Below, piece after piece: positions 2,380 to 63,147 of a DNA stretch of 64,000 nt. The translations under genes and the position numbers were made by a program. The DNA lies in assembly GCA_022710975.1 (NCBI GenBank), contig JAKLGA010000013.1:1-64000 (forward strand), given 5' to 3'. The notes beneath the pieces are model-generated. The model was not told where the DNA came from, ran no database searches, and saw only the letters and a program-made list of their open reading frames with translations. The first letter of the stretch is position 1. Each line of letters starts with the position of its first letter. Origin of the DNA: Myxococcota bacterium (GTDB taxonomy: Bacteria; Myxococcota; B64-G9).

Positions 2380-2427
2380 CGTCCTGATTGTCTGGGAACC
2401 GTCCCGATTATCACACTAGCAACTCGC

Positions 2428-2466
2428 GATCTCACCCGGGTGGGCGAAGCCCACCCGGATGAGATC
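2428..2466. terminator. Strong GAA-loop hairpin after the RCC1 gene
   Basis: An 18-bp stem with one mismatch closes on a GAA loop (arms GATCTCA-CCCGGGTGGGC and GCCCACCCGGA-TGAGATC). It lies about 50 bp after the stop of the RCC1 lipoprotein gene. No T-run follows, so a classical intrinsic terminator is not proven. It could instead be an mRNA-stabilising hairpin. Confidence 0.4.
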
Positions 2467-2509
2467 GCCGCCCGTGGATGTCCCCATGACAGGAGGGCGA
2501 CCCGGTCAC

Positions 2510-2575
2510 AGGCAACTTCACCATCAGAGAAACTCCTGAGAGAGCCAGGCACGGAAGGTCAGCAAGCGAGAAGCG
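2510..2575 (+). repeat. Dispersed intergenic element, right half (copy A)
   Basis: This stretch matches the right arm of the dispersed palindromic element (core GAGAGCCAGGCACGGAAGGT). It sits in the 313-bp gap before the next lipoprotein gene. Just upstream, 2488-2515 is identical over 28 bp to 8848-8875, which covers the 3' end of another lipoprotein gene. This gap therefore holds a relic of such a gene end plus half an element, and no gene. Confidence 0.6.
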
Positions 2576-2599
2576 TGGCTGATGTGGAGAGGTCATCGC

Positions 2600-2692
2600 C
2601 TGGCGCTGGCCGGGACCTTCTCACGTGGGCCATTTCCAGCTAGCATGAGGTGGACTGCTGAATGGCCTGGGACCTGGGTTCGGGAGGTGATC
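2600..2692 (+). promoter_or_regulatory. Leader cassette B upstream of a Cys-rich lipoprotein gene
   Basis: This leader closely matches the leader at 9838-9930. Shared blocks include GGCGCTGGCCGGG, CGTGGGCC, TTTCC and ATGAGGTGGA, ending in GGGAGGTG as ribosome site. A TAGCAT at 2641 sits where the other copy has TATGAT, so it may hold a -10 element. No clear -35 is visible. Confidence 0.4.
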
Positions 2693-4228
2693 ATGCGCGG
2701 GCGCTGGCTCGAAACCGTTCGGCTGGGGATCGGGCTCGCCATGCTGTGCCCGGCGGCGGCCTGCGACCGGGCGGACTCCTCCCCAGGCTGCCCGCCCACG
2801 CCCGTCTGCACGCCCAACGAGGTCGAGGAGTGCGCCTGCCTCCAGGATCACGTGGGCACCCGCGTGTGCGATTCGGACGGGTGCGGCTTCTCGGAGTGCG
2901 CCTGCTGCGCGCCGGACTGCTCCGGCCGGGAGTGCGGTCCGGACCCGGTCTGCGGCGTGTCCTGCGGGGAGTGCGCAGAGCACGAGGACTGCGGCGCCGA
3001 CGGGACGTGCGCCTGCCGCTGGCCGTGCGAGGAGGCCTGCTGCGGCCCGCACGAGCGCTGCGTGCGCGGCATGTGCGTGTTCGAGGAGGACTTTTGCCAC
3101 GGCCAGGACGAGTGTCCTTCGAACCTGGTCTGCTCCGCGGGTCGTTGCAGACCGGACTGCGTGCAGGATGCGGATTGCCCTGCGGATCAGGTGTGCAGTG
3201 GTGGCCGCTGCCAACCCGCGGCCTGCACCAGCCGCGAGGACTGTGCCGTCTTCGAGGGCTGCCGGGTGTGCGTGGATCAGGTCTGCCGTGCCGAACCACC
3301 TGTGTGCTCCGGCGACCGGGACTGCTGCGTGGGGCACCGCTGCAACTTCGGCGCCTGTGTCGAGGTCACTCCAGCCTGCGAACACGACTCGGACTGCCTG
3401 GACCCGGAGCTGCCGAGGTGCGTGGCTGGCTCCTGCAGGCCCGAGTGCGACCTGGACATCGGCTGCCCGCCCTGCGAGCACTGCGTCCTCGGCCACTGTG
3501 AGCGCTTCGGCTGCTACTCCCAGCCCTGCGACCCGGGCTTCTACTGCGACGCGACGACGTGCGGCTGCGTGCCCGGCTGCGACTCGGATGACGACTGCAC
3601 CCCGCCAGAGATCTGCAGGCTTCCCTCCCACGGATGCGGGTCCGACATCGACGATTGCTGCGGCAACGCCTGCCAGGCGCCCGCCACCTGCGACTCCCTG
3701 AGCTGCGCCTGCGCCGAGCCCTGCGTGCGGGGCGACTGCGTGTCCGGCGCCTGCAGCCTGTACCCCAACACCACCTGCGACGCGGCCTCCGGCAAGTGCG
3801 TGGCCTGCCCGGCGGGCTTCACCTGCGACGCGGCCACCGGCCAGTGCGTGTGCGCGGGGCCCTCCTGTCCGGCCAGCTCGACCTGCAACGCCACGACCGG
3901 CATGTGCGAGCCGGACCAGGGCATCTGCGACCCGACCTGCGAGACGCCGGAGGCCTGCAGCTTCTACGACGTGTGCGTGACCCCGGGCAGCGGCCAGGAC
4001 GGCACGCCATGCTTCTCCGACGCGGAATGCGATTCATCCCAGGGCCTCCTGTGCGACGGTTCCCTGTTCTGCATCGGCTGCATGACTGTGGACCCGACCT
4101 TCGCGCCCGGGTTCGTCTGCCGCGAGGAGTGCTCGCTGCTGATGGGCGGCTGCACGAACCCGGCCTACACCTGCAAGTACCGCCACACGGACCTGAAGGG
4201 CCTGTGCGTCCCCGAGGATGTGCCGTGA
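2693..4228 (+). CDS. Extremely cysteine-rich lipoprotein (about 92 Cys in 511 aa)
   Basis: A predicted lipoprotein with signal MRGRWLETVRLGIGLAMLC and a lipid-attachment Cys close to residue 24. The mature chain is an almost unbroken series of short loops such as DxDCPxxxxCxxGRC. My hand count gives about 92 cysteines, near 18 percent of residues. This implies a heavily disulfide-bonded or metal-binding extracellular protein. No enzyme domain is recognisable. The ATG at 2693 is preferred over an upstream in-frame start because GGGAGGTG precedes it and the signal peptide begins exactly there. Its signal peptide matches those of the genes at 4896 and 9931. The function is unknown; an adhesive or structural surface role is only a guess. 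Confidence 0.8.
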   Translation: MRGRWLETVRLGIGLAMLCPAAACDRADSSPGCPPTPVCTPNEVEECACLQDHVGTRVCDSDGCGFSECACCAPDCSGRECGPDPVCGVSCGECAEHEDCGADGTCACRWPCEEACCGPHERCVRGMCVFEEDFCHGQDECPSNLVCSAGRCRPDCVQDADCPADQVCSGGRCQPAACTSREDCAVFEGCRVCVDQVCRAEPPVCSGDRDCCVGHRCNFGACVEVTPACEHDSDCLDPELPRCVAGSCRPECDLDIGCPPCEHCVLGHCERFGCYSQPCDPGFYCDATTCGCVPGCDSDDDCTPPEICRLPSHGCGSDIDDCCGNACQAPATCDSLSCACAEPCVRGDCVSGACSLYPNTTCDAASGKCVACPAGFTCDAATGQCVCAGPSCPASSTCNATTGMCEPDQGICDPTCETPEACSFYDVCVTPGSGQDGTPCFSDAECDSSQGLLCDGSLFCIGCMTVDPTFAPGFVCREECSLLMGGCTNPAYTCKYRHTDLKGLCVPEDVP

Positions 4229-4269
4229 GCTCCGTCCGCGGATGACCGACAGGTGCGAAGAGTAAGTTG

Positions 4270-4440
4270 TGCGTTTGCCGATCGTCCGTGTGCTTCCACT
4301 CCGGACAGTTCCTCGAGGGCAGAAGCCGAAGGGCCCCGAAACGAAACCCGGCGGCCCGCCTGGGCAACCTCCCCTCCTGCATTCACCCTCAAAGAAACTC
4401 CGAAGAGAGCCAGGCACGAAAGGTCTGCCAGCGAACGGTA
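4270..4440 (+). repeat. Dispersed intergenic palindromic element (copy B)
   Basis: A full-length copy. The left arm contains TTTGCCGATCGTCCGTGTGC and the right arm GAAACTCCGAAGAGAGCC. The two arms are imperfect inverted repeats of each other around a variable centre. It fills most of the 304-bp gap between two plus-strand genes, in which I see no gene. Confidence 0.65.
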
Positions 4441-4532
4441 TGGGTGGGTGCGGGCTCAGCGCCGCGCCAGTCCAGGACCGGTCCTTGCGCTTCGGGCCGC
4501 TCCGTAGGAAACTCTGTCGCAGGGGTCGTACC

Positions 4533-4844
4533 ATGCACTGGCTGAAGCACTTCGCGGGGATGCTGTTCGTCACGGCGCTGGTCGCGGCCTCGCCGGGGTG
4601 CGGCCAGGAGCCCGACTGCACTGCCGCCGCCGAGAAGCTCGAGGGCTGCGGCCTGGGCTCGTTCGCCGACCACTACGAGCTCAGGGGCGGCGCCTGCGAG
4701 GAGACCAGCGCCTGCATCGCCGACTGCGTGTGCGAACGGAGCTGCGCCGAGATCGAGGGAACCATCACGACGGCCGACTGGAACCAGCACCTGTTGTGCG
4801 GCCACGAGTGTCCGCAGATCACGCTGTGCTCCGGTCCGCTCTGA
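4533..4844 (+). CDS. Small Cys-containing lipoprotein, unknown function
   Basis: A 103-residue predicted lipoprotein. The signal MHWLKHFAGMLFVTALVAA runs into SPGC, the likely lipidated Cys. The mature part of about 80 residues has regularly placed cysteines (CERSC, CGHEC, CxADC), so a compact disulfide fold is likely. The ATG at 4533 is chosen because the signal peptide starts there and AGGGG lies upstream. The next gene begins 51 bp downstream on the same strand, so co-transcription is possible. No family is recognised. Confidence 0.7.
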   Translation: MHWLKHFAGMLFVTALVAASPGCGQEPDCTAAAEKLEGCGLGSFADHYELRGGACEETSACIADCVCERSCAEIEGTITTADWNQHLLCGHECPQITLCSGPL

Positions 4845-4895
4845 GGCTGGGGGCTACTCGATCGACGGCCTGTCGATGGAATCTGAGGGGTGGTC

Positions 4896-5954
4896 GTGCG
4901 CGGGCGCTGGCTCGACACCGTTCGGCGGGGAGTCCTGGTCGGCCTAGCCTGCCTCGGCGCAGGCTGCGGCGGAGGCGGGGGACCATGCTGGCAGGAAGGC
5001 GCCCTCTGCTTTCCCGTTCCGCCGACGGGTCAGTCAGCGTGCTACGACAACGAAGGGTCCATCGCTTGCCCCGGAGAAGCGGGCGACCCGACCTGTGGAT
5101 CGACGCCCTTCTGCGGGCAAGACGCCCAGCAGGGGCGCGCACCCAGGACGTTCACCGTCCAGGCCGTCGGCGATGAACGCGTGGTCATGGACTCCCTGAC
5201 CGGGCTCATCTGGCAGCAGGCATTTGTCGGCGAAAAGACGGTGCAGGAGGCGCTCGACCTCTGCAGCGACCTCGTCTACGCCGGCGAAGACGACTGGAGG
5301 CTACCGGACTACCACGAGATCGCTGGCATCGCTGACTACGGTCGCCACTCGCCAGCCATCGACACGGCGGCCTTCCCTGGGACACCCGGCGATTGGTTCT
5401 GGTCCTCTTCCCCCTACCACTACCAGGCGATCGACTGGAGCGTCGAAGGTGTCTTCGACGTGGACTTCGTGGATGGCTCCGTGGAATTTGGCGACGAGGT
5501 CGACAGCCTCGAGCACGTTCGCTGCGTGCGGGGCGAACAGATCGTCGTCCAGGGATCGGATCGCTTCGTCGTGTCTGGTTCTGCAAACGATGAGGTGGTG
5601 CGGGACAGGGCCACCGGGCTCAGGTGGCAGAAAGAAGAAGTCCCCCTGAAGACCTGGGAGCAGGCGCTCGTCACATGCGAGGGCCTTTCCCTCGGAGGTC
5701 ATGACGACTGGAGGCTTCCCGACATCAACGAGCTCCGGAGCCTGGTCAATCCGAAGACGGTCGTGCCGGCCTCGGATTTTCCGGGTATGTCCTCGGACTG
5801 GTTCTGGTCATCTTCCTCCAGCGTAGCACTCGCCAGCGAAGCTTGGGGCATCGCCTTCGGCGTGGGCAATGTGACCACGCTGGACAAGACCATCGATTGC
5901 CAGGAGGGCTGTGCCTACCCTGTGAGCGTGCGGTGTGTTCGGGGCGTTCCGTGA
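4896..5954 (+). CDS. DUF1566 (Lcl C-terminal-like) lipoprotein
   Basis: A predicted lipoprotein of 352 aa with signal VRGRWLDTVRRGVLVGLACL. Two tandem units follow, each with the pattern DxxTGLxWQ...W...DDWRLPxxxE...WFWSSS...VRCVRG. This is the signature of the DUF1566/Lcl_C family, found in many exported bacterial proteins of unclear role. The units span about residues 85-210 and 215-350. The GTG at 4896 is preferred to the GTG at 4890 because it aligns with the homologous signal peptides at 2693 and 9931, and GAGGGG precedes it. It shares its signal peptide with Cys-rich proteins although its mature domain is unrelated and Cys-poor. Confidence 0.85.
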   Translation: MRGRWLDTVRRGVLVGLACLGAGCGGGGGPCWQEGALCFPVPPTGQSACYDNEGSIACPGEAGDPTCGSTPFCGQDAQQGRAPRTFTVQAVGDERVVMDSLTGLIWQQAFVGEKTVQEALDLCSDLVYAGEDDWRLPDYHEIAGIADYGRHSPAIDTAAFPGTPGDWFWSSSPYHYQAIDWSVEGVFDVDFVDGSVEFGDEVDSLEHVRCVRGEQIVVQGSDRFVVSGSANDEVVRDRATGLRWQKEEVPLKTWEQALVTCEGLSLGGHDDWRLPDINELRSLVNPKTVVPASDFPGMSSDWFWSSSSSVALASEAWGIAFGVGNVTTLDKTIDCQEGCAYPVSVRCVRGVP

Positions 5955-6007
5955 GACCTCCCGCTGTGTCTGTCTTGCTCCTGCCGCGGAGACCTGGTGC
6001 AGGTGGC

Positions 6008-6175
6008 TGAAGGCCGGGCGTTTGCAGATCGCCCGTGTGCCCCCACTCCAGGCATTTCTTCGAGGGTAGAATCGGGAAAGGCCTTTCTACCGCGTGAGGC
6101 CTGCTCCCCTCCTGCCTTCACCTTACAGGAAACTCCGAAGAGAGCCAGGCACGGAAGGCCTGCCAACGATCGGCG
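6008..6175 (+). repeat. Dispersed intergenic palindromic element (copy C)
   Basis: A full copy between convergent genes. The left arm carries GTTTGCAGATCGCCCGTGTG, the centre is GC-rich (CCTTTCTACCGCGTGAGG), and the right arm carries GAAACTCCGAAGAGAGCC. The arms are imperfect inverted repeats of about 50 bp, so the transcript could fold as a long hairpin. Confidence 0.7.
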
Positions 6176-6189
6176 GACAGGGTGCGGGC

Positions 6190-8571
6190 TCAGCGCCTCG
6201 CGCAGGCCGGCAGGTAGGACACGAAGCCCGGGCGCACGTCCACGCGGATGGCCTGGCAGGAGTAGGTGTCCGTGGGCTCGCAGTCGGCGTCCGTCACGCA
6301 GGCCCGGGTGCAGTACTCGAGGCCCGGACCGCCCTCGCCCTCGATCAGGCAATGCCCGCTCCAGCAGACCTCCTCACCCGCCTCGCAGTTCGCGCCGAGC
6401 TGGCCGGTGCCCGGACCGCCCGCGTCGCACACGTAGACCGCGGCGGTGGCGGTCGAGTTGGCATCCAGCCGACAGGCCTCGCCAGCGCGGCAGTCCGCGT
6501 CGAGGGCGCAAGGGCGTCTCTCCGGCATGCACAGGTTGGTCGTGTCGTACACCGGCTGGCCCGAGGCGTCGTCGCCCAGGTAGAAGGCGTACGTCGTGCA
6601 GCCGAACACCCGCCGGCACAGGCCTGCCTCGCACAGGGTGCCGAGCTCGCAGGTGGCGTCGGCCCCGCAGGCCGTGGCGGTGTCGAAGGTGGGACAGTCG
6701 GCGTCCGAGACGCACACCCCCAGGCAATAGCCCCAGTTCCCGCACCACACGGAAAAGCAATCGGTCGGGCCAGCGCACGCCTCGCCCGTGTTGTCGTGTC
6801 CGGGGCCGGACCCGTACTGGCACTCTGTGACGAGCGACAAACCGTCCGCGTCGAGGAACACCTGGCAGGAGCGGCCAGCCGGGCAGTCGGCGTTCCGTCC
6901 ACAGGCGTCCGGATCCGGATCGCGCACGCAGGCGGTCAACTCGTGCGCGCCGCCGCCGAGGTCCTGGACCATCACCAGCCCGCACTCCGAGCCCTGCACG
7001 CAGTCGAGGGAGTCCAGGCAGAGCTCCGAGCAGCGGCCTTCGTTCCCGCCGGTGCAGAGCTCTGCGCCGCACAGGCACAGGCCGGTCTCGCACTCGGAGC
7101 CCTGCGTGCAGGCCAGACCGGCCGGGGCACCATCGGGGTTGGGCTGGAGGCAGACCGCGAGCACGTCGTCGAGGGTCGGGCGGAAGGAGCAGACCCTCGA
7201 TGGCGCGCAGTCGGGGGTGCGGCGGCAGGCGGTCTCCCCGGCGTTCACCGGGGTGCAGCTCCGGATGGAACCGGTCACCCCTTCCAGGGTGTAGGGCACG
7301 TCCTGGCACGAGGTCCCCAGGTAGCCCGCGCAGTCCAGGTCGTCCACGCACACGGCGCCGCAGGCGTGGTCCACGCACAGGGAGTTCGCGCACAGCAGGC
7401 CCGCCTCCTCGTCGCAGTAGGCCCCGGGCTCACGGCCCCCGGGGAGGATCCGGACGCAGCGAGTCGCCAGCACTACATCGTCCACCACCACGCCGCACAG
7501 CTCGCCCGTGGCCACGCAGACCGGATCCCGGTGGTAGGTGCAGGCCGCGCCCAGTTCCAGGCGCTCCAGGATGAAGGAGCACTGGGGCGAGCACACGATC
7601 CAGAAGGGGGTCGTCAGGCTGGCCTTCCCGTGGCAAGGGAAGCCCAGGCCGCCGCACTCCACGTACAGGTTGAGCCGCGCGTCGAGCCGGCCCGTGCAGA
7701 TCGCGTACAGGGAGAAGGTGATCGCGCAGCCGGCCTGGTCGATCACGACGGCCCCGATGTTTTCGCCAAGGCAGTAGGGGGTGATGTCGTAGGTGCCCGA
7801 GAGGTCGGGGCAGGTCTCGATCGGCTCGCACAGGCCCTGCGGGCTGCAGCGCGCGGCGTGCCCGCAGGTCCCGCAGCTCCTGCCGAGGCAAGGATCCGGC
7901 CCGCACTCCAGGCCCTCACAGCAAGGCGCCTCGACGCAGTGGCCCGATTCACTGCACTGCTCACCCTCCGCGCAGGTGCCGCAACTCCCCCCACAGCCGT
8001 CGTACCCGCACTCCTGCCCCGTGCAGTCCGGGCAGCACTGCCACTCGCACCAGCCCCGGTCGACGATGCAGCGCTCCGGGGCGGGCTCTCCGGCGCAGTC
8101 CAGGCAGTCGCCGCAGCTCCCACCGCAGCCGTCGTCTCCGCACTCCTTGTTCGTGCAATCAGGCGCGCACATGCACTGGCCGTTCGCCTGGCACAGCTCG
8201 CCCACGCCGCACTCCCCGCAGCTCCCCTGGCAGCCGTCGTCCCCGCACTCCCTGGCGTCGCAGGCTGGTGCACAGCCTGGCTGACACTGACCCCCTGGAT
8301 CGCAGCTCTCGCCCGGCGGGCACGCGCCGCAGGTCTGCCCGCAGCCGTTGTCCCCGCACTCCTTGCCCGCGCAGTCCGGGGCGCACACGCAGTAGTGGTT
8401 CGCGTCGCAGAGCTGATCCGGCTGGCATCCGCCGCAGCTCCCCCCGCAGCCGTCGTCGCCGCACTGCTTACCGGTACAGGTAGGGACGCAGGGATCGGGC
8501 TGCGACTTCGAATCACAGCCGGCGAGGACTCCAGCGACGACCAGCCCGAGGATGGCGATCCTGATCTGCAT
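6190..8571 (-). CDS. Large Cys-rich lipoprotein with CGDDGCGG repeats (paralogue of 10823-13225)
   Basis: A predicted lipoprotein of 793 aa with signal MQIRIAILGLVVAGVLAGC. Roughly the first 250 mature residues are repeats of about 20-35 aa built on CGDDGCGGSCGxC. A segment starting CPDLSGTYDITPYC and a long Cys-rich C-terminal part follow. From about CPDLSGTYDI to the end it is collinear with the 800-aa protein at 10823-13225, and both end PACARR. The ATG at 8571 is chosen over the ATG six bases upstream because GGGAGGGATGGGA gives good spacing and the signal peptide begins MQ. The function is unknown. A 140-bp internal block is identical to the paralogue at DNA level. Confidence 0.8.
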   Translation of the reverse strand: MQIRIAILGLVVAGVLAGCDSKSQPDPCVPTCTGKQCGDDGCGGSCGGCQPDQLCDANHYCVCAPDCAGKECGDNGCGQTCGACPPGESCDPGGQCQPGCAPACDARECGDDGCQGSCGECGVGELCQANGQCMCAPDCTNKECGDDGCGGSCGDCLDCAGEPAPERCIVDRGWCEWQCCPDCTGQECGYDGCGGSCGTCAEGEQCSESGHCVEAPCCEGLECGPDPCLGRSCGTCGHAARCSPQGLCEPIETCPDLSGTYDITPYCLGENIGAVVIDQAGCAITFSLYAICTGRLDARLNLYVECGGLGFPCHGKASLTTPFWIVCSPQCSFILERLELGAACTYHRDPVCVATGELCGVVVDDVVLATRCVRILPGGREPGAYCDEEAGLLCANSLCVDHACGAVCVDDLDCAGYLGTSCQDVPYTLEGVTGSIRSCTPVNAGETACRRTPDCAPSRVCSFRPTLDDVLAVCLQPNPDGAPAGLACTQGSECETGLCLCGAELCTGGNEGRCSELCLDSLDCVQGSECGLVMVQDLGGGAHELTACVRDPDPDACGRNADCPAGRSCQVFLDADGLSLVTECQYGSGPGHDNTGEACAGPTDCFSVWCGNWGYCLGVCVSDADCPTFDTATACGADATCELGTLCEAGLCRRVFGCTTYAFYLGDDASGQPVYDTTNLCMPERRPCALDADCRAGEACRLDANSTATAAVYVCDAGGPGTGQLGANCEAGEEVCWSGHCLIEGEGGPGLEYCTRACVTDADCEPTDTYSCQAIRVDVRPGFVSYLPACARR

Positions 8572-8640
8572 TCCCATCCCTCCCGTAGGATCCGTCTCCA
8601 GCTTCCACCCACCGGTGCCCACCGCGCAAGGCCCCGAGGC
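8572..8640 (-). promoter_or_regulatory. Leader cassette A (copy 1)
   Basis: Read on the minus strand, this leader contains GGTGGGTGGAAGCTGGAGAC and ends GGGAGGGATGGGA before the ATG. It matches the leaders of five other genes in the window. No clear -10/-35 pair is visible. Confidence 0.45.
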
Positions 8641-8659
8641 TGAAGTGTGGCCACTGCGA

Positions 8660-8822
8660 ACCAGGGCCGGGCGTTTCCCGATCGTCCGTGTGCCACCACT
8701 CAGGGCAGTTCCTGGAGGGTCGAAGCAGAGGGCCTTTCTACCGCGTGGGGCTTGCTCCCTCCTGCCTTCACCTTAATAGAAACTCCGAAGAGAGCCAGGC
8801 ACGGAAGGTCACCGAACGATCC
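8660..8822 (+). repeat. Dispersed intergenic palindromic element (copy D)
   Basis: A full copy with left arm GATCGTCCGTGTGCCACC and right arm GAAACTCCGAAGAGAGCC. It lies between two minus-strand lipoprotein genes and fills most of the 294-bp gap. Confidence 0.65.
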
Positions 8823-8865
8823 CCGGCGGAAGCTGCTGGCCCCGCGAGACAGGAGGGCGACCCGG

Positions 8866-9555
8866 TCACAGGCAAGCGCAGTCCAGGCAGGGGGTGCAGC
8901 AAGCGCGCACAGGGTCGCAGGTGAGGTACACGCCGCAGGCGGCGCAGTCCGCATCGCTCGCGCAGCTCTCGACCCCGCAGCCCTGGCACTCTCCGAGCGC
9001 GCACAGGCCATCCTCCGGACCGAGGTACAAGCCCACACCGCAGGGGCGGCCGTCACAGTCGGCCCGGTCCTCGCAGTCGGTGTTCCCGTCGCCGTCGTCG
9101 TCCCGGTGATCCCCGCAGTCCACCTCGACGCCGCCCTGTGCGCAGCCCTCCGCGGTGCAGGCCTGCCCCGCGGCGCAGTCGGCGTCGGTGACGCACGAGC
9201 ACCAGCGCGGATCTCCGGGCTCGGTGCAGGCGTGGTTGGTGGTCCGGTGAGGACACTCGCACGGGCCGCAGTGGCCGCAGAAGTTAATTGGGAAACCCCA
9301 GGCGCAGCGCCCACCCGGGCAGTCCTGGTTCCTGCCGCAGTGGCCGCTCGGCGGGTAGCAGCCCAGCACGCAGGTGTCCGGGTCGCGGGCGTCGATGCAG
9401 GCGTAGTCGCAGTAGTCCTGGCAGGACTGATCCGGCGGGCAGTCGGCGTCGGTCCGGCACGTGTCGCCCGACTCCTCGTCGCAGCCAGGAAGGTGAGCGA
9501 GCGAGAAGAAGAGCAGCGTGAGCAAGCCCGCTATGAGAATCCCGAGCCCCCGCAT
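8866..9555 (-). CDS. Cys-rich lipoprotein (paralogue of 56090-56794)
   Basis: A predicted lipoprotein of 229 aa. The signal MRGLGILIAGLLTLLFFSLA ends at HLPGC. The mature protein shares its full layout with the protein at 56090-56794: TDADCPxxQSCQxYC, then PSGHCGxNxDC, a GDxRxCxCxxxADCAxGQxC segment, CxxDxxxDxxxDCxDRAxC, and the C-terminus CCTPCLDCACL. The acidic stretch with regularly spaced Asp could bind a cation. The start follows GGAGGTCGGGGAC. Divergent from the gene at 9931. The biochemical role is unknown. Confidence 0.8.
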   Translation of the reverse strand: MRGLGILIAGLLTLLFFSLAHLPGCDEESGDTCRTDADCPPDQSCQDYCDYACIDARDPDTCVLGCYPPSGHCGRNQDCPGGRCAWGFPINFCGHCGPCECPHRTTNHACTEPGDPRWCSCVTDADCAAGQACTAEGCAQGGVEVDCGDHRDDDGDGNTDCEDRADCDGRPCGVGLYLGPEDGLCALGECQGCGVESCASDADCAACGVYLTCDPVRACCTPCLDCACL

Positions 9556-9647
9556 GTCCCCGACCTCCGTATGGTGGAGCCGCCTGCAACTCCCAGACTA
9601 CCAGCGCCTACCGCAGCCGACAAGGCTGGCCTCCTCGAGCGCTGGGC

Positions 9648-9822
9648 CGGACGTTTGCCGATCGTCCGTGTGCATCCACCCCGGGCAGTTCCTCGAGGGT
9701 AGAAGAAGAAGGACCTCGATGCGAGGCAGCCTGGAGGTGCAAGCTCCCCTCCTGCCTTCACCTTAAAAGAAATTCCTGAGCGCTCAGGCACGGAAGGTCT
9801 GCCAACGAACGGTTTGGGTTGG
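9648..9822 (+). repeat. Dispersed intergenic palindromic element (copy E)
   Basis: A full copy in the divergent gap (9556-9930). Left arm TTTGCCGATCGTCCGTGTGC; the right arm contains a perfect 14-bp palindrome CCTGAGCGCTCAGG (9775-9788) followed by CACGGAAGGTCTGCCAACG. No gene is visible in this 375-bp gap. Confidence 0.65.
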
Positions 9823-9837
9823 TGCGAGCTCAACGCC

Positions 9838-9930
9838 CGGCGCTGGCCGGGTTCTTCTTCCGTGGGCCCTTTCCGGCTATGATGAGGTGGATTGCTCGAT
9901 GTCCCTGGGACGTGGGTCCGGGAGGTGGTC
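9838..9930 (+). promoter_or_regulatory. Leader cassette B (second copy) with possible -10
   Basis: Near-match to 2600-2692. TATGAT at 9878-9883 fits a -10 box and TTCTTC 17 bp upstream is a weak -35. It ends in GGGAGGTGGTC just before the GTG start. Confidence 0.4.
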
Positions 9931-10731
9931 GTGCACGGTCGCTGGCTCGACACCGTTCGGCTGGGAGTCCTGGTCGGCCTAGCCTGCCTCGCCGCGGCCT
10001 GCGGCGGAGGCGAAGGAGGAACCGACGGCGGAGAGGACGGAGTTGGGGACGGAGATGGCGGGGAGTGTCCGACCACCTGCTCGCTCGTCCAAGACTGCTG
10101 CGTTGGCGAGGAGTGCCATCAGGGCACCTGCGCGCCCGTGGGCTCCTGCCCGACCGGCTGCAACGAGCTGTGCGACAGGACCGCCGATGAGGTCTGCGAT
10201 CAGGGCACCATGCGCTGCGTCCAGGGCTCCCCCCCAGCGACCTGCCAGTCCGGATGCGATTGCTACGCAGGGGAGTCATGTGCCCTCGGTGTGTGCGCGC
10301 CGACCTGCGAGGACCACGCGGACTGCCCCGCTGGCCAGTACTGCCTGCAACACGGCTGCCGGGTGGTCTCTTGCCAGACGCTCCTCGACTGCCGGGTAGG
10401 GGGCCCGTGCCTGGTGTGCAAGGACCAGGTGTGTGTACCCCAACCGTCCCGCTGCGCGGGCCCGGAAGACTGCTGCCTGGGGACGGACTGCTATGGCGAC
10501 ACGTGCCAGCATCGAGATGGCTGCATGGTCGACGGCGATTGTGTGGAGCAGGACCTCCCTTACTGCGTCGGCGGCTACTGCGTGCCCGCAGCCTGCACTC
10601 TCGAGACCTGTCCACTGCTCTACTGGTGCAACCCTGAGACAGGGCGCTGTCTCGAGGGGTGCGACGAGGACCTGGACTGCCTGGTCGACCGGCGCTGCGA
10701 TCTCGACACCCACGACTGCGTCCCGAGGTGA
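9931..10731 (+). CDS. Cys-rich lipoprotein (signal-peptide cassette B)
   Basis: A predicted lipoprotein of 266 aa starting at a GTG. Its signal VHGRWLDTVRLGVLVGLACL parallels those at 2693 and 4896. After a Gly/Asp-rich spacer (GGGEGGTDGGEDG) come about 200 residues of Cys loops, including DCCVGEECHQGTC, CEDHADCPAGQYC and CxVCKDQVC. The last two patterns also occur in the protein at 2693-4228, so the mature parts are homologous over part of their length. The start is fixed by GGGAGGTGGTC and by alignment with the two relatives. The role is unknown. Confidence 0.8.
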   Translation: MHGRWLDTVRLGVLVGLACLAAACGGGEGGTDGGEDGVGDGDGGECPTTCSLVQDCCVGEECHQGTCAPVGSCPTGCNELCDRTADEVCDQGTMRCVQGSPPATCQSGCDCYAGESCALGVCAPTCEDHADCPAGQYCLQHGCRVVSCQTLLDCRVGGPCLVCKDQVCVPQPSRCAGPEDCCLGTDCYGDTCQHRDGCMVDGDCVEQDLPYCVGGYCVPAACTLETCPLLYWCNPETGRCLEGCDEDLDCLVDRRCDLDTHDCVPR

Positions 10732-10732
10732 A

Positions 10733-10800
10733 ACTCCCCTCCTGCCCTCACCCCAAAGAAATTCCGAAGTGAGCCAGGCATGGAAGGTCATCAAACGAAT
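10733..10800 (+). repeat. Dispersed intergenic element, right half (copy F)
   Basis: Only the right half is present (CCTCCTGCCCTCACC, then GAGCCAGGCATGGAAGGTCA). It occupies the short gap between convergent lipoprotein genes. Confidence 0.6.
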
Positions 10801-10822
10801 AGCGTAGCTGCCTGAGTATAGT

Positions 10823-13225
10823 TCATCGTCTTGCGCAGGCCGGGACGAAGGACACGAAGCCGGGCCGTACGTCGACCCGGATGGCCTGGCAGGAGTAGGT
10901 GTCCAGGGGCACGCAATCGACGTCCGTCACGCAGGCCTTCGAGCAGTAGGATCCACCGCCGGCCGCGTCGGGGAGGCACACACCGGTCCAGCAGGCGCTG
11001 GCGCCGATGGAGCAGTCCGCGCCGAGCGTACCCGAGCCCGGGCCGCCCGCGCTGCACTCGAGCACCACCCCGCTGGCCGCACGGTCGAGCTCCTGCCGGC
11101 AGGCCTCGCCCGTGCGGCAGTCCACGTCGCGGGAGCAGGGGCGCTGCTCCGGCTCGCAAAGTTGGATGGTGTCGACCAGGGGCTGGCCTGGTTCGCAGAA
11201 CTCCAGCTCGAACACCTCGGTCCCGCACCGGAAGCGGCGCTCGCAGGCGCCTGACTGGCACAGGAACCCGGGCTCGCAGCCGACGTCGTGCTCGCAGGCC
11301 GTGCCGGCCTCGAAGGTCGGGCAGTCGGCGTCCTCGACGCACCCGCCCAGACAGTAGCGCTCCGGGCTGCACCAAGAGGAAAAACAGTCGGAGGGGACGA
11401 CGCACGGGGTGCCGTCATCGGGAAAACCGGGGCCGGAGCTTATCTGGCATTCCCCCACCAGGGAACATCCACCCGCGTCGAGGAACACCTGGCAGGAGTA
11501 GCCGGCCGGGCAGTCCACGTGGCGCTGACAGTCGAACCAGGGGGGGCCGAAGACACAGGCCGTCACCTCGCGGGGGGTTCCGCCGAGATCCTCCACGACG
11601 ACCGGCCCGCACTCCGCGGCCAGCCCGCAGTCGAGGGAGTCCAGGCAAGGCTCCGAGCAGCGGCCTTCGTCCCCACCAGTGCAGGGCTCCGCGCCGCACA
11701 GGCACAGGGCCGTCTCGCACTGGCCGCCCTGCGTGCAGTGACCTCCGGCCGGCAAGCCACCCGGATTGGGCAGCAGGCAGACCGAGAGCACGCCGTCGTC
11801 GGTCGCGCGGAAGGAGCAGACCCTCGATGGCGCGCAGTCGGGGATGCGGCGGCAGGCGGTCTCCCCGGCGTTCACCGGGGTGCAGCTCTGGACAGATCCA
11901 TGGATGGTAACGAAGCCCGCATCCAGGGCGTAGGGCACGCTCTGGCAGGCGGTTCCCTGGTAGCCCACGCAGTCCAGGTCGTCCACGCACACGGCGCCGC
12001 AGGCGTGGTCCACGCACAGGGAGTTCGCGCACAGCAGGCCCGCCTCCTCGTCGCAGTAGGCCCCGGGCTCACGGCCCCCGGGGAGGATCCGGACGCAGCG
12101 AGTCGCCAGCCCTCCATCGTCCAACACCACGCCGCACAGCTCGCCCTCGGCCGTGCAGACCGGATCCCTGTGGGAGGTGCAGGCCGCGCCCAGCTCCAGG
12201 CGCTCGAAGATGAAGGAGCACTGGGGCGAGCACACGATCACGAAGGAGGTCGTCAGGCTGACCTCGCCGTAGCAGGGGAAGCCCAGGCCGCCGCACTCCA
12301 CGTACAGGTTGAGCTGCGCGTCGAGCCGGCCCGTGCAGTAGATCGCGTCCAAGGTGAAGGCGATCGCGCAGCCGGTCTGGTCGATCACGATGTCGCCGAT
12401 GTCCCCCCCAAGGCAGTAGGGGGTGATGTCGTAGGTGCCCGAGAGGTCGGGGCAGGCCGCCGGCACCTCGCACAGCCCCTGGGCCGTGCAGGCCTCGGGC
12501 GGGAGGCAGGTGCCGCAGGAGGCGCCGCACACGGGGTCGAGGCCGCACTCCTGGAGCCCGCAGACCGGGCAGCAGGCCTCCAGGCAGGTCCCCTCGTCGC
12601 ACAGGATGGGGTGCGCGTTGCCCAGGCAGTCGAGGCACTCGCCGCAGCTCCCGTTGCAGCCGTCGGGTCCGCACGTCTTGCCCGCGCAGTCCGGGACGCA
12701 CTCGCACAGGCCCTGCGCGCCGCAGGTCGTGGGCGCAGCGCAGGTCCCGCAGGAGGTGCCGCACACGGGATCCGGCCCGCACGCACGCCCCAGGCAGTCC
12801 GGACAGCACTGCTCCTGGCATTGGCCCGATCCGGGCTGGCAGAGCCACGGGGCCGGCTCTCCGAAGCAGTCCAGGCAGTCGCCGCAGCTCCCCACGCAGC
12901 CGTCGCTGCCGCAGTCCTTCCCCGTGCAGTCCGGGACGCACTCGCACCGCCCCCGGAAGTTGCAGAACTCGGACGCGGCGCACGTCCCGCAGCTCCCCCC
13001 GCAGCCGTCGTCGCCGCACATCCTGCGGAAGCAGCTGGGATAGCAGCACTGGCATGGGCGCCAACCGCTCCCGTCGGACAGGCAGGTCATCTCGCCAGAA
13101 GCTGCCCCGGCGCAGGTGCAGCTCGCACGCTGCCCCGGGTCGCACACCTTCCTTGCCTCGTCGCAGCCTGCGAGCAGACCGGCCAGGAGGAGCGCAGAAG
13201 TCAACGCCCGTCGCTTCAATCTCAT
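10823..13225 (-). CDS. Large Cys-rich lipoprotein, last gene of a four-gene operon
   Basis: A predicted lipoprotein of 800 aa. The signal MRLKRRALTSALLLAGLLAG precedes the lipid Cys. An N-terminal third of CxPxC...CGxDGCxGSCGxC and DPVCGxSCGTC repeats is followed by the CPDLSGTYDITPYC segment and a Cys-rich C-terminal region. It is collinear with the 793-aa protein at 6190-8571 from that segment to the shared C-terminus PACARR. It starts 9 bp after the stop of the preceding minus-strand gene, so it is the fourth cistron of a run that begins at 17834. The function is unknown. Confidence 0.8.
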   Translation of the reverse strand: MRLKRRALTSALLLAGLLAGCDEARKVCDPGQRASCTCAGAASGEMTCLSDGSGWRPCQCCYPSCFRRMCGDDGCGGSCGTCAASEFCNFRGRCECVPDCTGKDCGSDGCVGSCGDCLDCFGEPAPWLCQPGSGQCQEQCCPDCLGRACGPDPVCGTSCGTCAAPTTCGAQGLCECVPDCAGKTCGPDGCNGSCGECLDCLGNAHPILCDEGTCLEACCPVCGLQECGLDPVCGASCGTCLPPEACTAQGLCEVPAACPDLSGTYDITPYCLGGDIGDIVIDQTGCAIAFTLDAIYCTGRLDAQLNLYVECGGLGFPCYGEVSLTTSFVIVCSPQCSFIFERLELGAACTSHRDPVCTAEGELCGVVLDDGGLATRCVRILPGGREPGAYCDEEAGLLCANSLCVDHACGAVCVDDLDCVGYQGTACQSVPYALDAGFVTIHGSVQSCTPVNAGETACRRIPDCAPSRVCSFRATDDGVLSVCLLPNPGGLPAGGHCTQGGQCETALCLCGAEPCTGGDEGRCSEPCLDSLDCGLAAECGPVVVEDLGGTPREVTACVFGPPWFDCQRHVDCPAGYSCQVFLDAGGCSLVGECQISSGPGFPDDGTPCVVPSDCFSSWCSPERYCLGGCVEDADCPTFEAGTACEHDVGCEPGFLCQSGACERRFRCGTEVFELEFCEPGQPLVDTIQLCEPEQRPCSRDVDCRTGEACRQELDRAASGVVLECSAGGPGSGTLGADCSIGASACWTGVCLPDAAGGGSYCSKACVTDVDCVPLDTYSCQAIRVDVRPGFVSFVPACARR

Positions 13226-16496: not shown

Positions 16497-17834
16497 CTAC
16501 GGCACCGGCCGGCAGTAGCAGTTTCCGCTCTCGGTGATGGGTTCGAAGCCGGTCGCACAGGCGTCGTCGATGCACTGCGCGGCGCAATAGGAAGCCCCGC
16601 AGCCGCCGTTCACGCAGTCAGGATTCCGACTCCCGGGCAAGAAGGCCGAGCAATCGGCATCGGAAGCGCACGGCATGTTCACCGGATCCTCCGACTCGCC
16701 GAGGCAGGCCAGGCCTGAATCGCACTCCATCGGGCAGCCCGGGTTGTTGATGTCTTCGAAAGTGCATGGTTCGCCGGAAGACTGTGCTCCGGTAATGAAG
16801 AACATTGGAATGCAATAACAGGTACCGGACACATCTGCTGGGGTGAAGAGCCCCTCACACCCCCCATCAGTGCATGGTACCGAGCAGAAGGAGTAGCCAC
16901 AGCTTCCACCCACGCAGTCGAGGTTGAAGTTCCAGGGACCAAGAACACAGCAGTCGACGGCATCCGAGCAAGACGAGACCTCGGGATTGGGCGCCATGCC
17001 GAGGCAAGTCAGCCCTGCGAGGCATTCGCCAGCACCGAGGTTCACCTCGCCGAAGGCGCAGGGTTCGCCGGGCTGCAGCTCCGTGGAGACGCAGCGGCCC
17101 ACGTAGTCGCAGACGGTGCCTTCCGGGCAGGTGCCGCACACGTCGGTGCCACAGACCGGATCCACGCCGCACTCCAGGTCGCCGCAGTCGCCGCAGCACT
17201 CACGCATGCAGACATGCCCGTTGCACATGTCCGGGGCCGGCTCGCCGTGGCACGTCTCGCACTCGCCGCAACTGCCGCCGCAGTCATCCGTGCCACATTC
17301 CCTCCCCGCGCAGTTCGGGACGCACACGCACTGGCCGCTCGCGTCGCACTGCCCGCCCTCCAGGCAGGTGCCGCAAGAAGTCCCGAAACACGGATCCGGG
17401 CCACAGATCCGACCCTCGCAGCAGGGCACCTCGAGGGTCTCGCACAGGCCCTGGGCGGTGCACTGCTCGCCCACCCCGCAATCCCCGCAGCTCCCCAGGC
17501 AGCCGTCCTCCCCGCACTCCTTGTTCGTGCAATCGGGCGCGCAAACGCACTGGCCGTTCGCCTGGCACAGCTCGCCTGCGCCGCAGGTGCCGCAGCTCCG
17601 GCCGCAGCCGTCGTCCCCGCACCATCTGCCGGCGCAGCTCGGGACGCACGTGCAGCTCCCGGTCTCCTCGTCGCACACCTCGTCCGAGGGGCAGGCGCCG
17701 CAGCTCTGGCCGCACAAGGAGTCGATCCCGCACTGCCTGCCTTCGCAGGCCGGGATGCAGAGGTCGGACTTCGAGTCGCAGCCGGCGACCAAGGCGGCGA
17801 GGAGAATCCCGAGGATGGCGGTCTTGACCTGCAT
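16497..17834 (-). CDS. Cys-rich lipoprotein, first gene of the four-gene operon
   Basis: A predicted lipoprotein of 445 aa with signal MQVKTAILGILLAALVAGC. The first 240 mature residues are CGDDGCGRSCGTCG-type repeats, including DPVCGTDVCGTC. Two copies of the ~90-residue repeat follow (GEPCAFGEVN...CYCIP and GEPCTFEDIN...CYCRP). Its signal and leader match those at 8571, 54841, 57079, 61170 and 63220. The start at 17834 follows GGGAGGGATGGGT; the ATG six bases upstream is the less likely choice. It probably carries the promoter for the next three genes, which follow at 14, 20 and 9 bp. Confidence 0.8.
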   Translation of the reverse strand: MQVKTAILGILLAALVAGCDSKSDLCIPACEGRQCGIDSLCGQSCGACPSDEVCDEETGSCTCVPSCAGRWCGDDGCGRSCGTCGAGELCQANGQCVCAPDCTNKECGEDGCLGSCGDCGVGEQCTAQGLCETLEVPCCEGRICGPDPCFGTSCGTCLEGGQCDASGQCVCVPNCAGRECGTDDCGGSCGECETCHGEPAPDMCNGHVCMRECCGDCGDLECGVDPVCGTDVCGTCPEGTVCDYVGRCVSTELQPGEPCAFGEVNLGAGECLAGLTCLGMAPNPEVSSCSDAVDCCVLGPWNFNLDCVGGSCGYSFCSVPCTDGGCEGLFTPADVSGTCYCIPMFFITGAQSSGEPCTFEDINNPGCPMECDSGLACLGESEDPVNMPCASDADCSAFLPGSRNPDCVNGGCGASYCAAQCIDDACATGFEPITESGNCYCRPVP

Positions 17835-17905
17835 ACCCATCCCTCCCGGAGGATCTGTTCCTAGCTTCCACCCATTGGAACCCGTGGGGCAAGGGAGGGG
17901 GCAGG
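17835..17905 (-). promoter_or_regulatory. Leader cassette A (copy 2), probable operon leader
   Basis: On the minus strand this reads TTGCCCCACGGGTTCCAATG, then GGGTGGAAGCTAGG, then GGGAGGGATGGGT and the ATG. It is nearly identical to the leader at 63148-63219 and likely carries the 5' end of the four-gene operon transcript. The remaining bases up to the ORF6N gene at 18128 hold nothing further I can name. Confidence 0.45.
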
Positions 17906-54729: not shown

Positions 54730-54768
54730 CCCCGGGCTGCCGGTGGCTGGCACCCACGGGAGGGTAGC

Positions 54769-54840
54769 CCTGCCTCCAGGTCTTGCCCCACGGGTTTCAA
54801 CGGGTGGAAGCTGGAGACAGATCCTCCGGGAGGGATGGGC
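54769..54840 (+). promoter_or_regulatory. Leader cassette A (copy 3)
   Basis: TCTTGCCCCACGGGTTTCAA, then GGGTGGAAGCTGGAG and CCGGGAGGGATGGGC before the ATG. It matches the other leaders almost base for base. Confidence 0.45.
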
Positions 54841-56073
54841 ATGCAGGTCCGATCCGTCGTCCTCGGGATTCTCCTCGCTGGCCTCCTCGGTGGATGCGAC
54901 TCGCAGTCCGAGCGGTGTATCCCCGCCTGCGAGTTCAGGCAATGCGGGGACGACGGCTGCGGGGGGAGCTGCGGGGAGTGCGTATCTCCCGCGTCCTGCA
55001 ACCCCGACGGCCTGTGCCAAGGCCACTGGAACAACAGTTGCATGACGTCCGAGGATTGCGAGAGCGGCTTGTGCTTTCGCTACTCCGACGGCACGGGCTA
55101 CTGCTCCACGCGCGGTTGCCTGGACAACGACGACTGTGTGAACTACGCCGAGGGCGAGACGGCCGAGATGTGCTGCGTGGACGTGGGCGGCGACTTCAAG
55201 GTCTGTCTGAAGATCGACCCCGGCTACGCCTGCGGCAACCAGGACAAGACCTGCGGCCAGTCCTGCCTGGGCCAGGTGGACTCGGCCTGCGATCCCAACC
55301 ACACCTGCCTGAGCGGCGCGGACGTGTACTGCTCGCACACCTGCGTCACCAACACGGACTGCAGCGACTGCCAGGCCGAAGACCCGGACACGACGTTCCA
55401 GTGCTGGTTGATCGGCGGCGGTGACTCCTACTGCATCGCGGCGAACTCCGCCACCTGCACCGCCTCCTCCCACTGCGACGCGGGCGAGGCCTGCTCCCCG
55501 TACATCGACGAGACCGGCCAAGCGTTGAAGGGCTACTGCGTCTCCGGCGGCACGCTGACGGCCGGCGCCGAGTGCGACGAGGACGACGACCAGTGCATGG
55601 GCATGTGCATCGAGGGGCACTGCTCCGAGGTTTGCGCGACCGACGGCGACTGCCCGGTGCAGGGGACCTGCACGGTGGTCAGCTTCTGCAAGACCACTGA
55701 GGGCACCGGCGACTGCGCCTCCTGCGCCGAGTCCTTCCCGGACATCGCGATGTGCCTCTGGCCCCCGTTCGGGACCCTGTCGGCCGGCGCGCCCTGCGCG
55801 GGGGGCGGCGTCCTCTTCCGCGCGGACCCATGCCAGGCGGGCCTGACCTGCCTGGACTTCGATCTCGCCGATCCGCCCTGCGCGACCGTCGAGGACTGCA
55901 CCGCGCTGATCCCCGGGAGCTGGAACGTCGGGTGCGTGCCGGGTGCCTGCGGCGTCCCGAGCCACTGCGCCGCTTCTTTCTGCTCCAGCCGCTGTGACCT
56001 CGCCGGTGGCTGCGAGCAGGGCTTCGTGCCCATCGATCGAGCTGGCGACTGCTACTGCGCTCCGAGCCCGTAG
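54841..56073 (+). CDS. Cys-rich lipoprotein (partial paralogue of 61650-62843)
   Basis: A 410-residue predicted lipoprotein with signal MQVRSVVLGILLAGLLGGC. The N-terminal part has CGDDGCGGSCGECV and a unique CSTRGCLDNDDC loop. From MCCVDVGGDFKVCLKI to the C-terminus it is collinear with the 397-residue protein at 61650-62843, and near-identical in DNA in places. One diverged ~90-residue repeat ends the protein (...WNVGCVPGACGVPSHC...CYCAPSP). The paralogue uses an unrelated signal peptide. The next gene starts 17 bp downstream. Confidence 0.8.
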   Translation: MQVRSVVLGILLAGLLGGCDSQSERCIPACEFRQCGDDGCGGSCGECVSPASCNPDGLCQGHWNNSCMTSEDCESGLCFRYSDGTGYCSTRGCLDNDDCVNYAEGETAEMCCVDVGGDFKVCLKIDPGYACGNQDKTCGQSCLGQVDSACDPNHTCLSGADVYCSHTCVTNTDCSDCQAEDPDTTFQCWLIGGGDSYCIAANSATCTASSHCDAGEACSPYIDETGQALKGYCVSGGTLTAGAECDEDDDQCMGMCIEGHCSEVCATDGDCPVQGTCTVVSFCKTTEGTGDCASCAESFPDIAMCLWPPFGTLSAGAPCAGGGVLFRADPCQAGLTCLDFDLADPPCATVEDCTALIPGSWNVGCVPGACGVPSHCAASFCSSRCDLAGGCEQGFVPIDRAGDCYCAPSP

Positions 56074-56839: not shown

Positions 56840-57000
56840 CCGTTCTGCGACCTTCCGTGCCTTCCTCTCTTCGGAGTTTCTTCGAAGGTGAAGGCAGGAG
56901 GGGCCAGGCCCCACGCGGTAGAAAAGCCTTTCACCGATTTTGCCCTCGAAGAAATGCCCGGAACGAGAGCACGCGGACGATCGGCAAACGCCCCGCCACA
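56840..57000 (-). repeat. Dispersed intergenic palindromic element (copy I, inverted)
   Basis: A full copy in the opposite orientation: GACCTTCCGTGCCTTCCTC, then TTCGAAGGTGAAGGCAGG, a central CCACGCGGTAGAAAAGCC and the arm GGACGATCGGCAAACGCCC. It fills most of the gap between two plus-strand lipoprotein genes, so element orientation is not tied to transcription. Confidence 0.65.
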
Positions 57001-57007
57001 TGCGGGC

Positions 57008-57078
57008 CTTGCCTCCAGGCCTTGCCCACGGGTTCCAATGGGAGGAAGCTGAAGACAGATCCTCCGGGAGGGATGGGA
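57008..57078 (+). promoter_or_regulatory. Leader cassette A (copy 4)
   Basis: GCCTTGCCTCCAGGCCTTGC, then CACGGGTTCCAATGGGAGG and CCGGGAGGGATGGGA before the ATG. Confidence 0.45.
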
Positions 57079-61080: not shown

Positions 61081-61096
61081 TGTCAGCCCCTTGCGG

Positions 61097-61169
61097 CCTT
61101 GCCTCCAGCCCTTGCCCCACGGGTTCCAATGGGTGGAAGCTGGAATCAGATCCTCAGGGAGGGATGGGA
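61097..61169 (+). promoter_or_regulatory. Leader cassette A (copy 5)
   Basis: GCCTTGCCTCCAGCCCTTGC, then CCCACGGGTTCCAATGGGTG and CAGGGAGGGATGGGA before the ATG. Confidence 0.45.
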
Positions 61170-61625
61170 ATGCAGGTTCGGATCGCCATCCTCGGACTCT
61201 TCCTGGCTGGTGCTCTCGCCGGCTGCGGCGAGGAGGCGCACGTCATCGGCACGATCGACGTTTCGGAGGTCGGTGGGTGGAGCCCGTCGCCGTCATTCAG
61301 GCTGATCGTCGGGCCGGAGGGCGACAGCCAGGTGTACGCCGTGGACGTCGCCGGCCTCGACGGGCACTACACCGGCACGGTCAGGCCGAACAGGCTGGCT
61401 TCCTTCCGGAGTTTCGTCGCCGGGATCGACTTCGGTGCGTACGAGTTCCCGACCAATTACCAGACCGAGGTGGGAAGCGTCCAGACGACCATCGAGATCG
61501 ACGGGGTGGCTGAGACCGATCTGTTCTTCGAGGACGACTCCTTCCCTTTGGAGATCGGGGAGCTCAGGGACCTGGCGCTAGGCGTCGTCGTGGCGACCGT
61601 GTGGACGCCGATCGAGGGCGGCTAG
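61170..61625 (+). CDS. Cys-poor lipoprotein with cassette A signal peptide
   Basis: A 151-residue predicted lipoprotein. The signal MQVRIAILGLFLAGALAGC is near-identical to those of the Cys-rich proteins at 8571 and 57079. The mature domain (about 130 residues) has no Cys after the lipidation site. It looks like a beta-sandwich (FRLIVGPEGDSQVYAVDVAG, TTIEIDGVAETDLFFED). It is thus an unrelated module behind a shared leader and signal. The next gene starts 25 bp downstream. Function unknown. Confidence 0.75.
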   Translation: MQVRIAILGLFLAGALAGCGEEAHVIGTIDVSEVGGWSPSPSFRLIVGPEGDSQVYAVDVAGLDGHYTGTVRPNRLASFRSFVAGIDFGAYEFPTNYQTEVGSVQTTIEIDGVAETDLFFEDDSFPLEIGELRDLALGVVVATVWTPIEGG

Positions 61626-62974: not shown

Positions 62975-63140
62975 TCGCCCCTCCGTGCTTCAGGGCCCTT
63001 CCATTTCTACCCCCGAAGAAATGCCCGGGATGAACCAGGTTTCCAAGCGCCCCGACGATGCCGGGCTTCCAAGCGCGCCGGGCGCGCAGGAAACCTAGCC
63101 CAGAGGGAGCACACGGACGATCGGCAAACGCCCCGCCACA
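62975..63140 (-). repeat. Dispersed intergenic element (copy J) with nested palindromic insertion
   Basis: An inverted copy carrying CGAAGAAATGCCCGGG and CGGACGATCGGCAAACGCC. Relative to copy I, about 60 bp (63037-63096) is inserted, bounded by AGGTTTCC and GGAAACCT, with two CTTCCAAGCGC-like direct repeats inside. With the adjacent hairpin and leader it makes up the 376-bp gap; no gene is seen. Confidence 0.6.
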
Positions 63141-63147
63141 TGCGGGC

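Follow-up and report, generated by a model that had tools for sequence, protein, structure and literature searches.

Leaders shared by unrelated bodies of putative lipoprotein genes in a Myxococcota bacterium

A parallel to the Erp lipoproteins of Borrelia

According to PMC10016077, the Erp (OspE/OspF/Elp) lipoproteins of the Borrelia burgdorferi cp32 prophages have a promoter, leader and localisation sequence common to many mature parts, and their genes recombine with one another. Likewise, the same leader was found here on unrelated mature parts in a Myxococcota bacterium (GTDB B64-G9, GCA_022710975.1); the promoter is presumed, and one gene, 4896, carries the ribosome site and signal peptide only (genes are named by their start). 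Whereas the Borrelia genes occupy one allelic site on prophage plasmids under a known repressor system, those described here are spread over several clusters, on large contigs (C5, C8, C14, C24, C28 and C1), carry three leaders, include DUF1566 and methyltransferase-like bodies, and often have a palindromic repeat at their upstream edge. Because these genes are dispersed over contigs with no single allelic location, the present case is a parallel to Erp, not a member of it. As to surface localisation, a further Erp trait, the genes here show a lipobox pattern only. No description of this case was found among the papers listed in literature searches, PMC10016077 and PMC2775950 included, which is a weak negative.

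The window is the whole stretch analysed, i.e., positions 1-64,000 of the forward strand of contig JAKLGA010000013.1 (features are on the + strand unless marked -). The assembly (29 contigs, 98.6% complete, 71% GC) may be a metagenome bin. Genes and lipoproteins were called by simple scripts that looked at the GC content of codon positions and at a lipobox pattern, instead of by a trained predictor, and the lipoprotein status of all genes, being read from the lipobox pattern alone, is putative. The start given by the scripts to C5_16575m is plainly wrong, and genes such as 4533 and 57073 were overlooked.

The second leader and its three genes

An earlier note on this DNA had described a second leader cassette, unrelated to a first one and shared by genes 2693, 4896 and 9931. 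Such a leader (leader-2) does exist, and the coordinates and GRWL[ED]TVR-type signal peptides of the three genes were correct (MRGRWLETVRLGIGLAMLCPAAAC for 2693, VRGRWLDTVRRGVLVGLACLGAGC for 4896 and VHGRWLDTVRLGVLVGLACLAAAC for 9931). Their start-region DNA aligns at 79% identity over 168 bp for 2693 and 9931 (2599-2765 against 9836-10003), 93% over 89 bp for 4896 and 9931 (4889-4977 against 9924-10012, E 3e-29) and 90% over 42 bp for 2693 and 4896. As claimed, two of the genes encode Cys-rich proteins (Cys fractions of 0.17 for 2693 and 0.16 for 9931) and one a Cys-poor DUF1566 protein (0.04 for 4896). The genome-wide search with the signal-peptide profile that had been proposed returned the three genes, one on contig C14 (E 5e-5), a partial match on C29 limited to the lipobox end (E 2e-4) and 20 weaker matches.

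The Cys-rich putative lipoprotein genes 2693 (2693-4228, signal peptide 2693-2764) and 9931 (9931-10731, signal peptide 9931-10002) are each preceded by a leader-2 5' region (2599-2692 and 9836-9930) with a ribosome site and a presumed promoter/5'UTR. The leader of about 90 bp attributed to this pair is real: upstream of the ribosome site the match reaches z 11-22, with 0/500 dinucleotide shuffles as good, and identity extends upstream into the intergenic repeat (2516-2765 against 9756-10003, 76% over 251 bp). Since a scan of 2400-10050 gave no consensus sigma-70 promoter near 2599-2692 or 9836-9930, a promoter in the leader is presumed rather than located. In their mature parts 2693 and 9931 show homology (34%, E 5e-21), which extends to a fourth copy, C14_48006, on contig C14 (mature E 1e-15 to 1e-70 among the three). 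Their relation is thus ordinary paralogy, i.e., duplicated genes in which the bodies drifted apart and the start region was conserved, and because the mature parts are homologous the common leader needs no shuffling.

Gene 4896 (4896-5954) is different in its body, which holds two Lcl_C stretches (PF07603, E 1.4e-51, 174 bits against a gathering cut-off of 34.9) and matches no other leader-2 body (best E 1.2), which refutes paralogy for this gene. The segment common to 4896 and 9931 (4889-4977) begins at the ribosome site and ends just beyond the lipobox Cys codon, the last positions being Gly codons after Cys; downstream of it no homology with 9931 was found. Upstream of its ribosome site, 4896 aligns with neither 2693 nor 9931 (best z 1.25, 63/500 shuffles). 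A leader match of 4896 beyond the ribosome site, picked out by eye, was no better than shuffles. The small putative lipoprotein gene just upstream (4533-4844) has no Pfam match and lies outside all leader families. For a DUF1566/Lcl_C gene this leader is unusual: the GRWL leader occurs in 0/15 related DUF1566 ORFs of this genome and relatives (14 loci inspected among those returned), and the 5 other DUF1566 genes of its own genome and the inspected relatives are without leader-2. A scan with the DUF1566 protein turned up no named relative, and another with a neighbouring protein gave 4 loci (best, a Myxococcales MAG at 63%). Hence 4896 appears to have acquired a ribosome site and signal peptide only, without the leader of about 90 bp; it would be the sole true swap among the three genes, and leader-2 by its own yields one clear swap.

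Signal peptides could also look alike by composition in a 71% GC genome. Indeed, lipobox-coding DNA alone matches at 94% over 34 bp in another genome, and E 1e-10 is reached, through lipobox DNA, by two background leader pairs whose bodies are unrelated. As lipobox DNA matches by composition, the argument rests on the GRWLDTVR part, the rare codons and the noncoding leader. Genes 4896 and 9931 use the same codon at 17/19 shared residues (10.1 expected, P 0.0004) and have in common the rare codons CTA (1.0% of Leu codons in the genome) and GTT. Together with the GRWLDTVR n-region, the noncoding leader of 2693 and 9931 and the strength of the 4896/9931 alignment, this refutes convergence at the DNA level for the three genes and leaves it barely conceivable. 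The likeness, being conserved at the DNA level, therefore goes beyond the generic hydrophobicity that the earlier note had named as refuting its case. When 57 other genomes were queried with the DNA of 9640-10020, neither the repeat nor the upstream leader was found, and lipobox-region matches appeared in 2.

Leader families and their mature bodies

Two things absent from the earlier note strengthen the reading of module shuffling: a third leader family (MRGxGIL), and a repeat between genes that lies at leader edges. At a clustering cut-off of E 1e-5 for mature bodies, leader-1 (GMGMQ), leader-2 and leader-3 (MRGxGIL) comprise 10, 4 and 5 genes on 3, 2 and 4 mature clusters, respectively; a looser cut-off brings leader-3 down to 3 bodies and merges the Cys-rich bodies of leaders 1 and 2, through links such as 2693 to leader-1 bodies and 976m (E 2e-5 to 4e-4) and 976m to 18155p (E 4e-5, 37 aa). 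The C28 body comes from a locus of 3.1 kb and could be incomplete, and the partial leader-2 match and a 22-nt leader-3 match on C29 were left out. Among 12090 leader pairs (156 lipoprotein-like genes, 1.33 Mb), 15 reached E 1e-20, 12 of them within leader-1, 2 within leader-2 and 1 elsewhere; mature parts were non-homologous in 6/15, all in leader-1 or leader-2. No pair joins families 1 and 2 at E 1e-8. Leaders 1 and 3 gave no match in 8 other genomes of the family.

In the window, leader-1 is carried by the Cys-rich lipoprotein genes 6190-8577 (-), 16497-17840 (-, 93% over 117 bp with the 63214 leader) and 54835 (54767-56073 with its leader), by gene 57073 (leader copy at 56980-57135, 85%) and by 63214 (leader at 63120-63276). 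It also precedes the Cys-poor body of 61164 (61086-61625), which is related to MTRTRHL-leader genes on C8. A Cys-rich lipoprotein gene with a leader-3 (MRGLGIL) signal peptide lies at 8866-9555 (-). Conversely, like bodies occur under different leaders. The body of 63214 and that of a C8 gene under a different leader share 72% identity over 573 aa; against C8_10029 the DNA of 63214 is 80-100% identical per 30-nt bin from the Cys codon to about +860, and 47-73% before. The gene 6190-8577 and its paralogue 10823-13225 (-) have homologous bodies (E 0.0) and leaders without a match, and their likeness begins only some 140 nt past the Cys codon, off the lipobox.

These data bear on paralogy as a general explanation. 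It holds for 2693, 9931 and C14_48006 and for most leader-1 Cys-rich genes, whose mature parts are homologous; against it stand 4896, 61164, the C24/C1 methyltransferase-like pair and most leader-3 bodies, which have no match to their leader-mates at E<1e-5, and on balance it is unlikely. A mis-join of the assembly could lie behind a single gene, but is inadequate as a general account because three leader families exist. From sequence comparison we consider it probable, at about three in four, that in this genome recombination has joined a 5' expression-and-export module to unrelated secreted bodies. The module shuffling proposed earlier is thus supported genome-wide, as leader/body reassortment, and for 4896, but not for 2693 and 9931, whose mature parts are homologous.

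The intergenic repeat and the possible route of exchange

REP, ERIC, Correia and MITE elements are mobile palindromic intergenic repeats. The repeat found here resembles them in its imperfect inverted arms, its length of about 160-180 bp and its dispersal between genes, but differs in two respects: no Rfam family reaches its gathering score in the window, and folds are no better than those of shuffles (z -0.81 to 0.71). These results also led to rejection of a known RNA or a structured leader. The palindrome itself is modest: in four elements, 1, 11, 30 and 1 of 500 shuffles equalled the match of the left arm to the reverse complement of the right. Its right block precedes 2693 (2516-2575, nhmmer E 1.1e-12), and profile searches placed further copies at 4266-4441 (left and right blocks, also seen in the arm comparison), 6012-6175 (between convergent gene ends), 8665-8822 (88 nt upstream of the leader-1 gene 6190-8577) and 10737-10805 (right block, between convergent genes). 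Another, at 9645-9815, lies between a leader-3 and a leader-2 gene that point away from each other, their starts being 90 and 116 nt distant.

A repeat block lies within 200 nt upstream of 11/17 leader-family genes against 3/144 others (P 1e-10), and of 11/16 against 1/14 within the same clusters (P 0.0008); it is missing upstream of 6/17, including 4896. This enrichment suggests that the repeat is an upstream crossover site. Its distance to the start codon is near-constant (77-118 nt in 10/11 cases), as would also be expected if leader and repeat formed a regulatory region, rarely joined and then kept alike by selection on a regulon. Given the separateness of leaders 1 and 2, the lack of the upstream part in 4896 and the repeats between convergent gene ends, such a regulon is improbable as the explanation. 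An integron-like cassette array, with the repeats as integrase recombination sites, would fit the palindromic arms and the repeats of C5 1-19 kb, which have one orientation and in many cases are separated by just one or a few genes. Elsewhere the repeats are scattered in both orientations, leader junctions lie inside genes and not only at repeats, and no integron integrase in the genome exceeds the TIGR02249 cut-off (best 82.7 against 265 bits), which makes an integron very improbable; the attC core motif was not visible by eye at the arm ends.

In the preferred reading, recombination of a 5' module, the module would consist of the ribosome site and signal peptide and, in most copies, of upstream DNA likely holding a promoter. 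The downstream junctions, which are abrupt, would fall at the cleavage/lipobox codons or close to them, a stretch in which the genes resemble one another. The upstream junction would lie at the ribosome site in 4896 and otherwise within or beside the palindromic repeat that separates many cluster genes. Exchange would have proceeded by homologous or microhomology-mediated recombination, from repeat to repeat and from one lipobox region to another; the analysis caught neither a recombinase nor a donor/recipient pair. With a promoter inside the leader, a joined body would be expressed and exported at once. That the repeat is a standing recombination platform, from which promoter-plus-signal-peptide modules are moved between unrelated bodies by one crossover in the repeat and another near the lipobox, is a more tentative idea that we hold as possible but doubtful.

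Reassortment of leaders and bodies, for which the pathogen Borrelia is the described case, would here take place in a large genome of Myxococcota-like type that has three separate modules and often a repeat at the module edge. Leader capture as a source of new exported proteins becomes directly testable by strain comparison. If the platform idea is true, it would amount to a combinatorial display of secreted proteins in a Myxococcota-like bacterium, involving lipoprotein signal peptides as well as ordinary ones (leader-3).

Leaders and bodies of the GRWL genes

The start-region DNA that the earlier note had described as common to the genes starting at 2693, 4896 and 9931 was borne out, with 79% identity over 168 bp between 2693 and 9931 and 93% over 89 bp between 4896 and 9931, and rare codons match as well. 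Between 2693 and 9931, the aligned DNA also reaches an intergenic repeat further upstream and then totals 251 bp at 76%. Both encode Cys-rich putative lipoproteins with homologous mature parts, or bodies (34%, E 5e-21), to which a gene on contig C14 is also homologous (45% and 37%, respectively); each homology beat all 300 shuffles in which every Cys was fixed in place. Because these bodies are homologous, the common leader (5' region with the ribosome site, and signal peptide) of 2693 and 9931 is explained by gene duplication. The segment shared by 4896 runs from the ribosome site (4889) into the Gly codons (4977) that follow the lipobox Cys, with no likeness in either flank. Its product carries two DUF1566/Lcl_C stretches, Lcl_C having 12 matches in 6 genes (counted by position) in the genome. 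Since the body is of this type and the GRWL leader was found in none of 15 related DUF1566 ORFs, from relatives as well as this genome, that were inspected, 4896 is, judging from its sequence, a leader capture. Hence, the earlier note's reading, module shuffling, is partly right: it is supported for 4896 and not needed for 2693 and 9931, and the analysis extended it genome-wide.

Probable exchange of leaders and bodies across the genome

The leader capture of 4896 is not an isolated case. The genome (29 contigs, 7.13 Mb in total, GC 71%) has a Myxococcales MAG as closest named match, and the window covers bases 1-64000 of its contig C5; 1.33 Mb of the genome was surveyed, yielding 156 lipoprotein-like genes called by a simple script. 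Among 12090 leader pairs compared, 29 reached E 1e-8: 20 from leader-1 (GMGMQ), 4 from leader-2 (GRWL) and 5 others. Mature parts were non-homologous in 16 of these 29, including 2 outside both families that look like compositional or out-of-register matches. Whole-genome searches placed leader-1 at 10 places, leader-2 at 4 and leader-3, a further family (MRGxGIL), at 5, and the 19 family genes form nine mature clusters at E 1e-5 (three, two and four, respectively). Leader-3 gives a lipoprotein-type signal (LPGC) at 9555 and signals without lipobox at C8 18155 and C14 49314; therefore, the common DNA stops within the signal peptide.

Conversely, like bodies occur under different leaders. The proteins of 63214 and C8_10029 are 72% identical across 573 aa, their binned DNA being 80-100% identical from the Cys codon onward versus 47-73% upstream, and 17834 resembles C8_10029 for about 130 nt from the start of the mature part, but not in the leader. 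The homologous bodies of 8577 and 13225, under unlike leaders, become alike about 140 nt inside the body. Under leader-1, 61164 carries a Cys-poor body with two relatives among the C8 genes (E 1e-11 and 2e-5), and these bear another leader, MTRTRHL. Several bodies per leader and several leaders per like body are what module exchange predicts.

Other genes were observed alongside. Two leader-1 genes of 248 residues each (C24:17408 and C1:829.6k, locus L205) have mature parts 97% identical, methyltransferase-like as judged by eye. In the two proteins encoded at 605-976 and 18155-18772 of C8:1-20000 (L029), a Gly-rich hydrophobic stretch and then an Arg run form the C-terminus, resembling the MYXO-CTERM sorting signal. 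One putative lipoprotein at 235-2379 of the window has DUF7151 repeats, then RCC1 repeats.

An intergenic repeat at the module edge

Many of these genes are separated by a repeat of about 160-180 bp, which is dispersed (22 matches in the genome; 49 block matches in 1.33 Mb at E<0.05). In the four elements compared, its two blocks show weak reverse complementarity (1, 11, 30 and 1 of 500 shuffles were as good); folding against shuffles detected no structure and Rfam gave no family match. An integron was rejected as far as a search for an integron integrase could tell. In the contigs scanned, 11/17 leader-family genes have a block in the 200 nt upstream of them, versus 3/144 other lipoprotein-like genes (P 1e-10), and in 10 of the 11 it is 77-118 nt away; the remaining 6 of 17, including 4896, have none within that distance. 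The block models derive from the window, so the comparison within the same clusters is fairer (11/16 versus 1/14, P 0.0008).

Repeat orientation is uniform along C5 1-19 kb, the contig of the window, and opposite in C8 1-20 kb. As the repeats near both contig starts (C8:1-20000, C5:1-20000) run oppositely, reversed C8 and C5 may form one continuous cluster split by assembly. An identical 28-bp stretch at 2488-2515 and 8848-8875, immediately left of a repeat block at one site and immediately right at the other, points to rearrangement between intergenic regions. An ORF6N-domain gene (PF10543; 18128-18664) has its stop 6 bp ahead of a lone right block.

Proposed mechanism and spread

Most likely, illegitimate or short-homology recombination attaches a leader to a new body. 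The junctions are seen in the sequence; one crossover would fall near the lipobox or cleavage-site codons, which are similar between genes, and the second inside the repeat or at the ribosome site. The fused gene would thereby acquire a ribosome site, a signal and often a promoter region in one step; enzymes, rate and promoter are what we infer. In the Erp lipoproteins of Borrelia burgdorferi, a single promoter/leader/localisation sequence heads many independent mature parts, and the genes recombine with each other (PMC10016077). The leader/body arrangement here works alike; however, Erp genes occupy one cp32 allelic site, and the leader families here, whose genes lack such a common site, are a parallel and not Erp-type members. 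One account associates stem-loop sequences with Borrelia lipoprotein genes (PMC2775950).

The repeat and upstream leader-2 were absent from 57 other genomes searched with the 9640-10020 DNA, and leader-1 and leader-3 had no match in 8 other genomes of the family. With neither the repeat nor the leaders present in the relatives searched, the spread of both was probably recent or lineage-specific.
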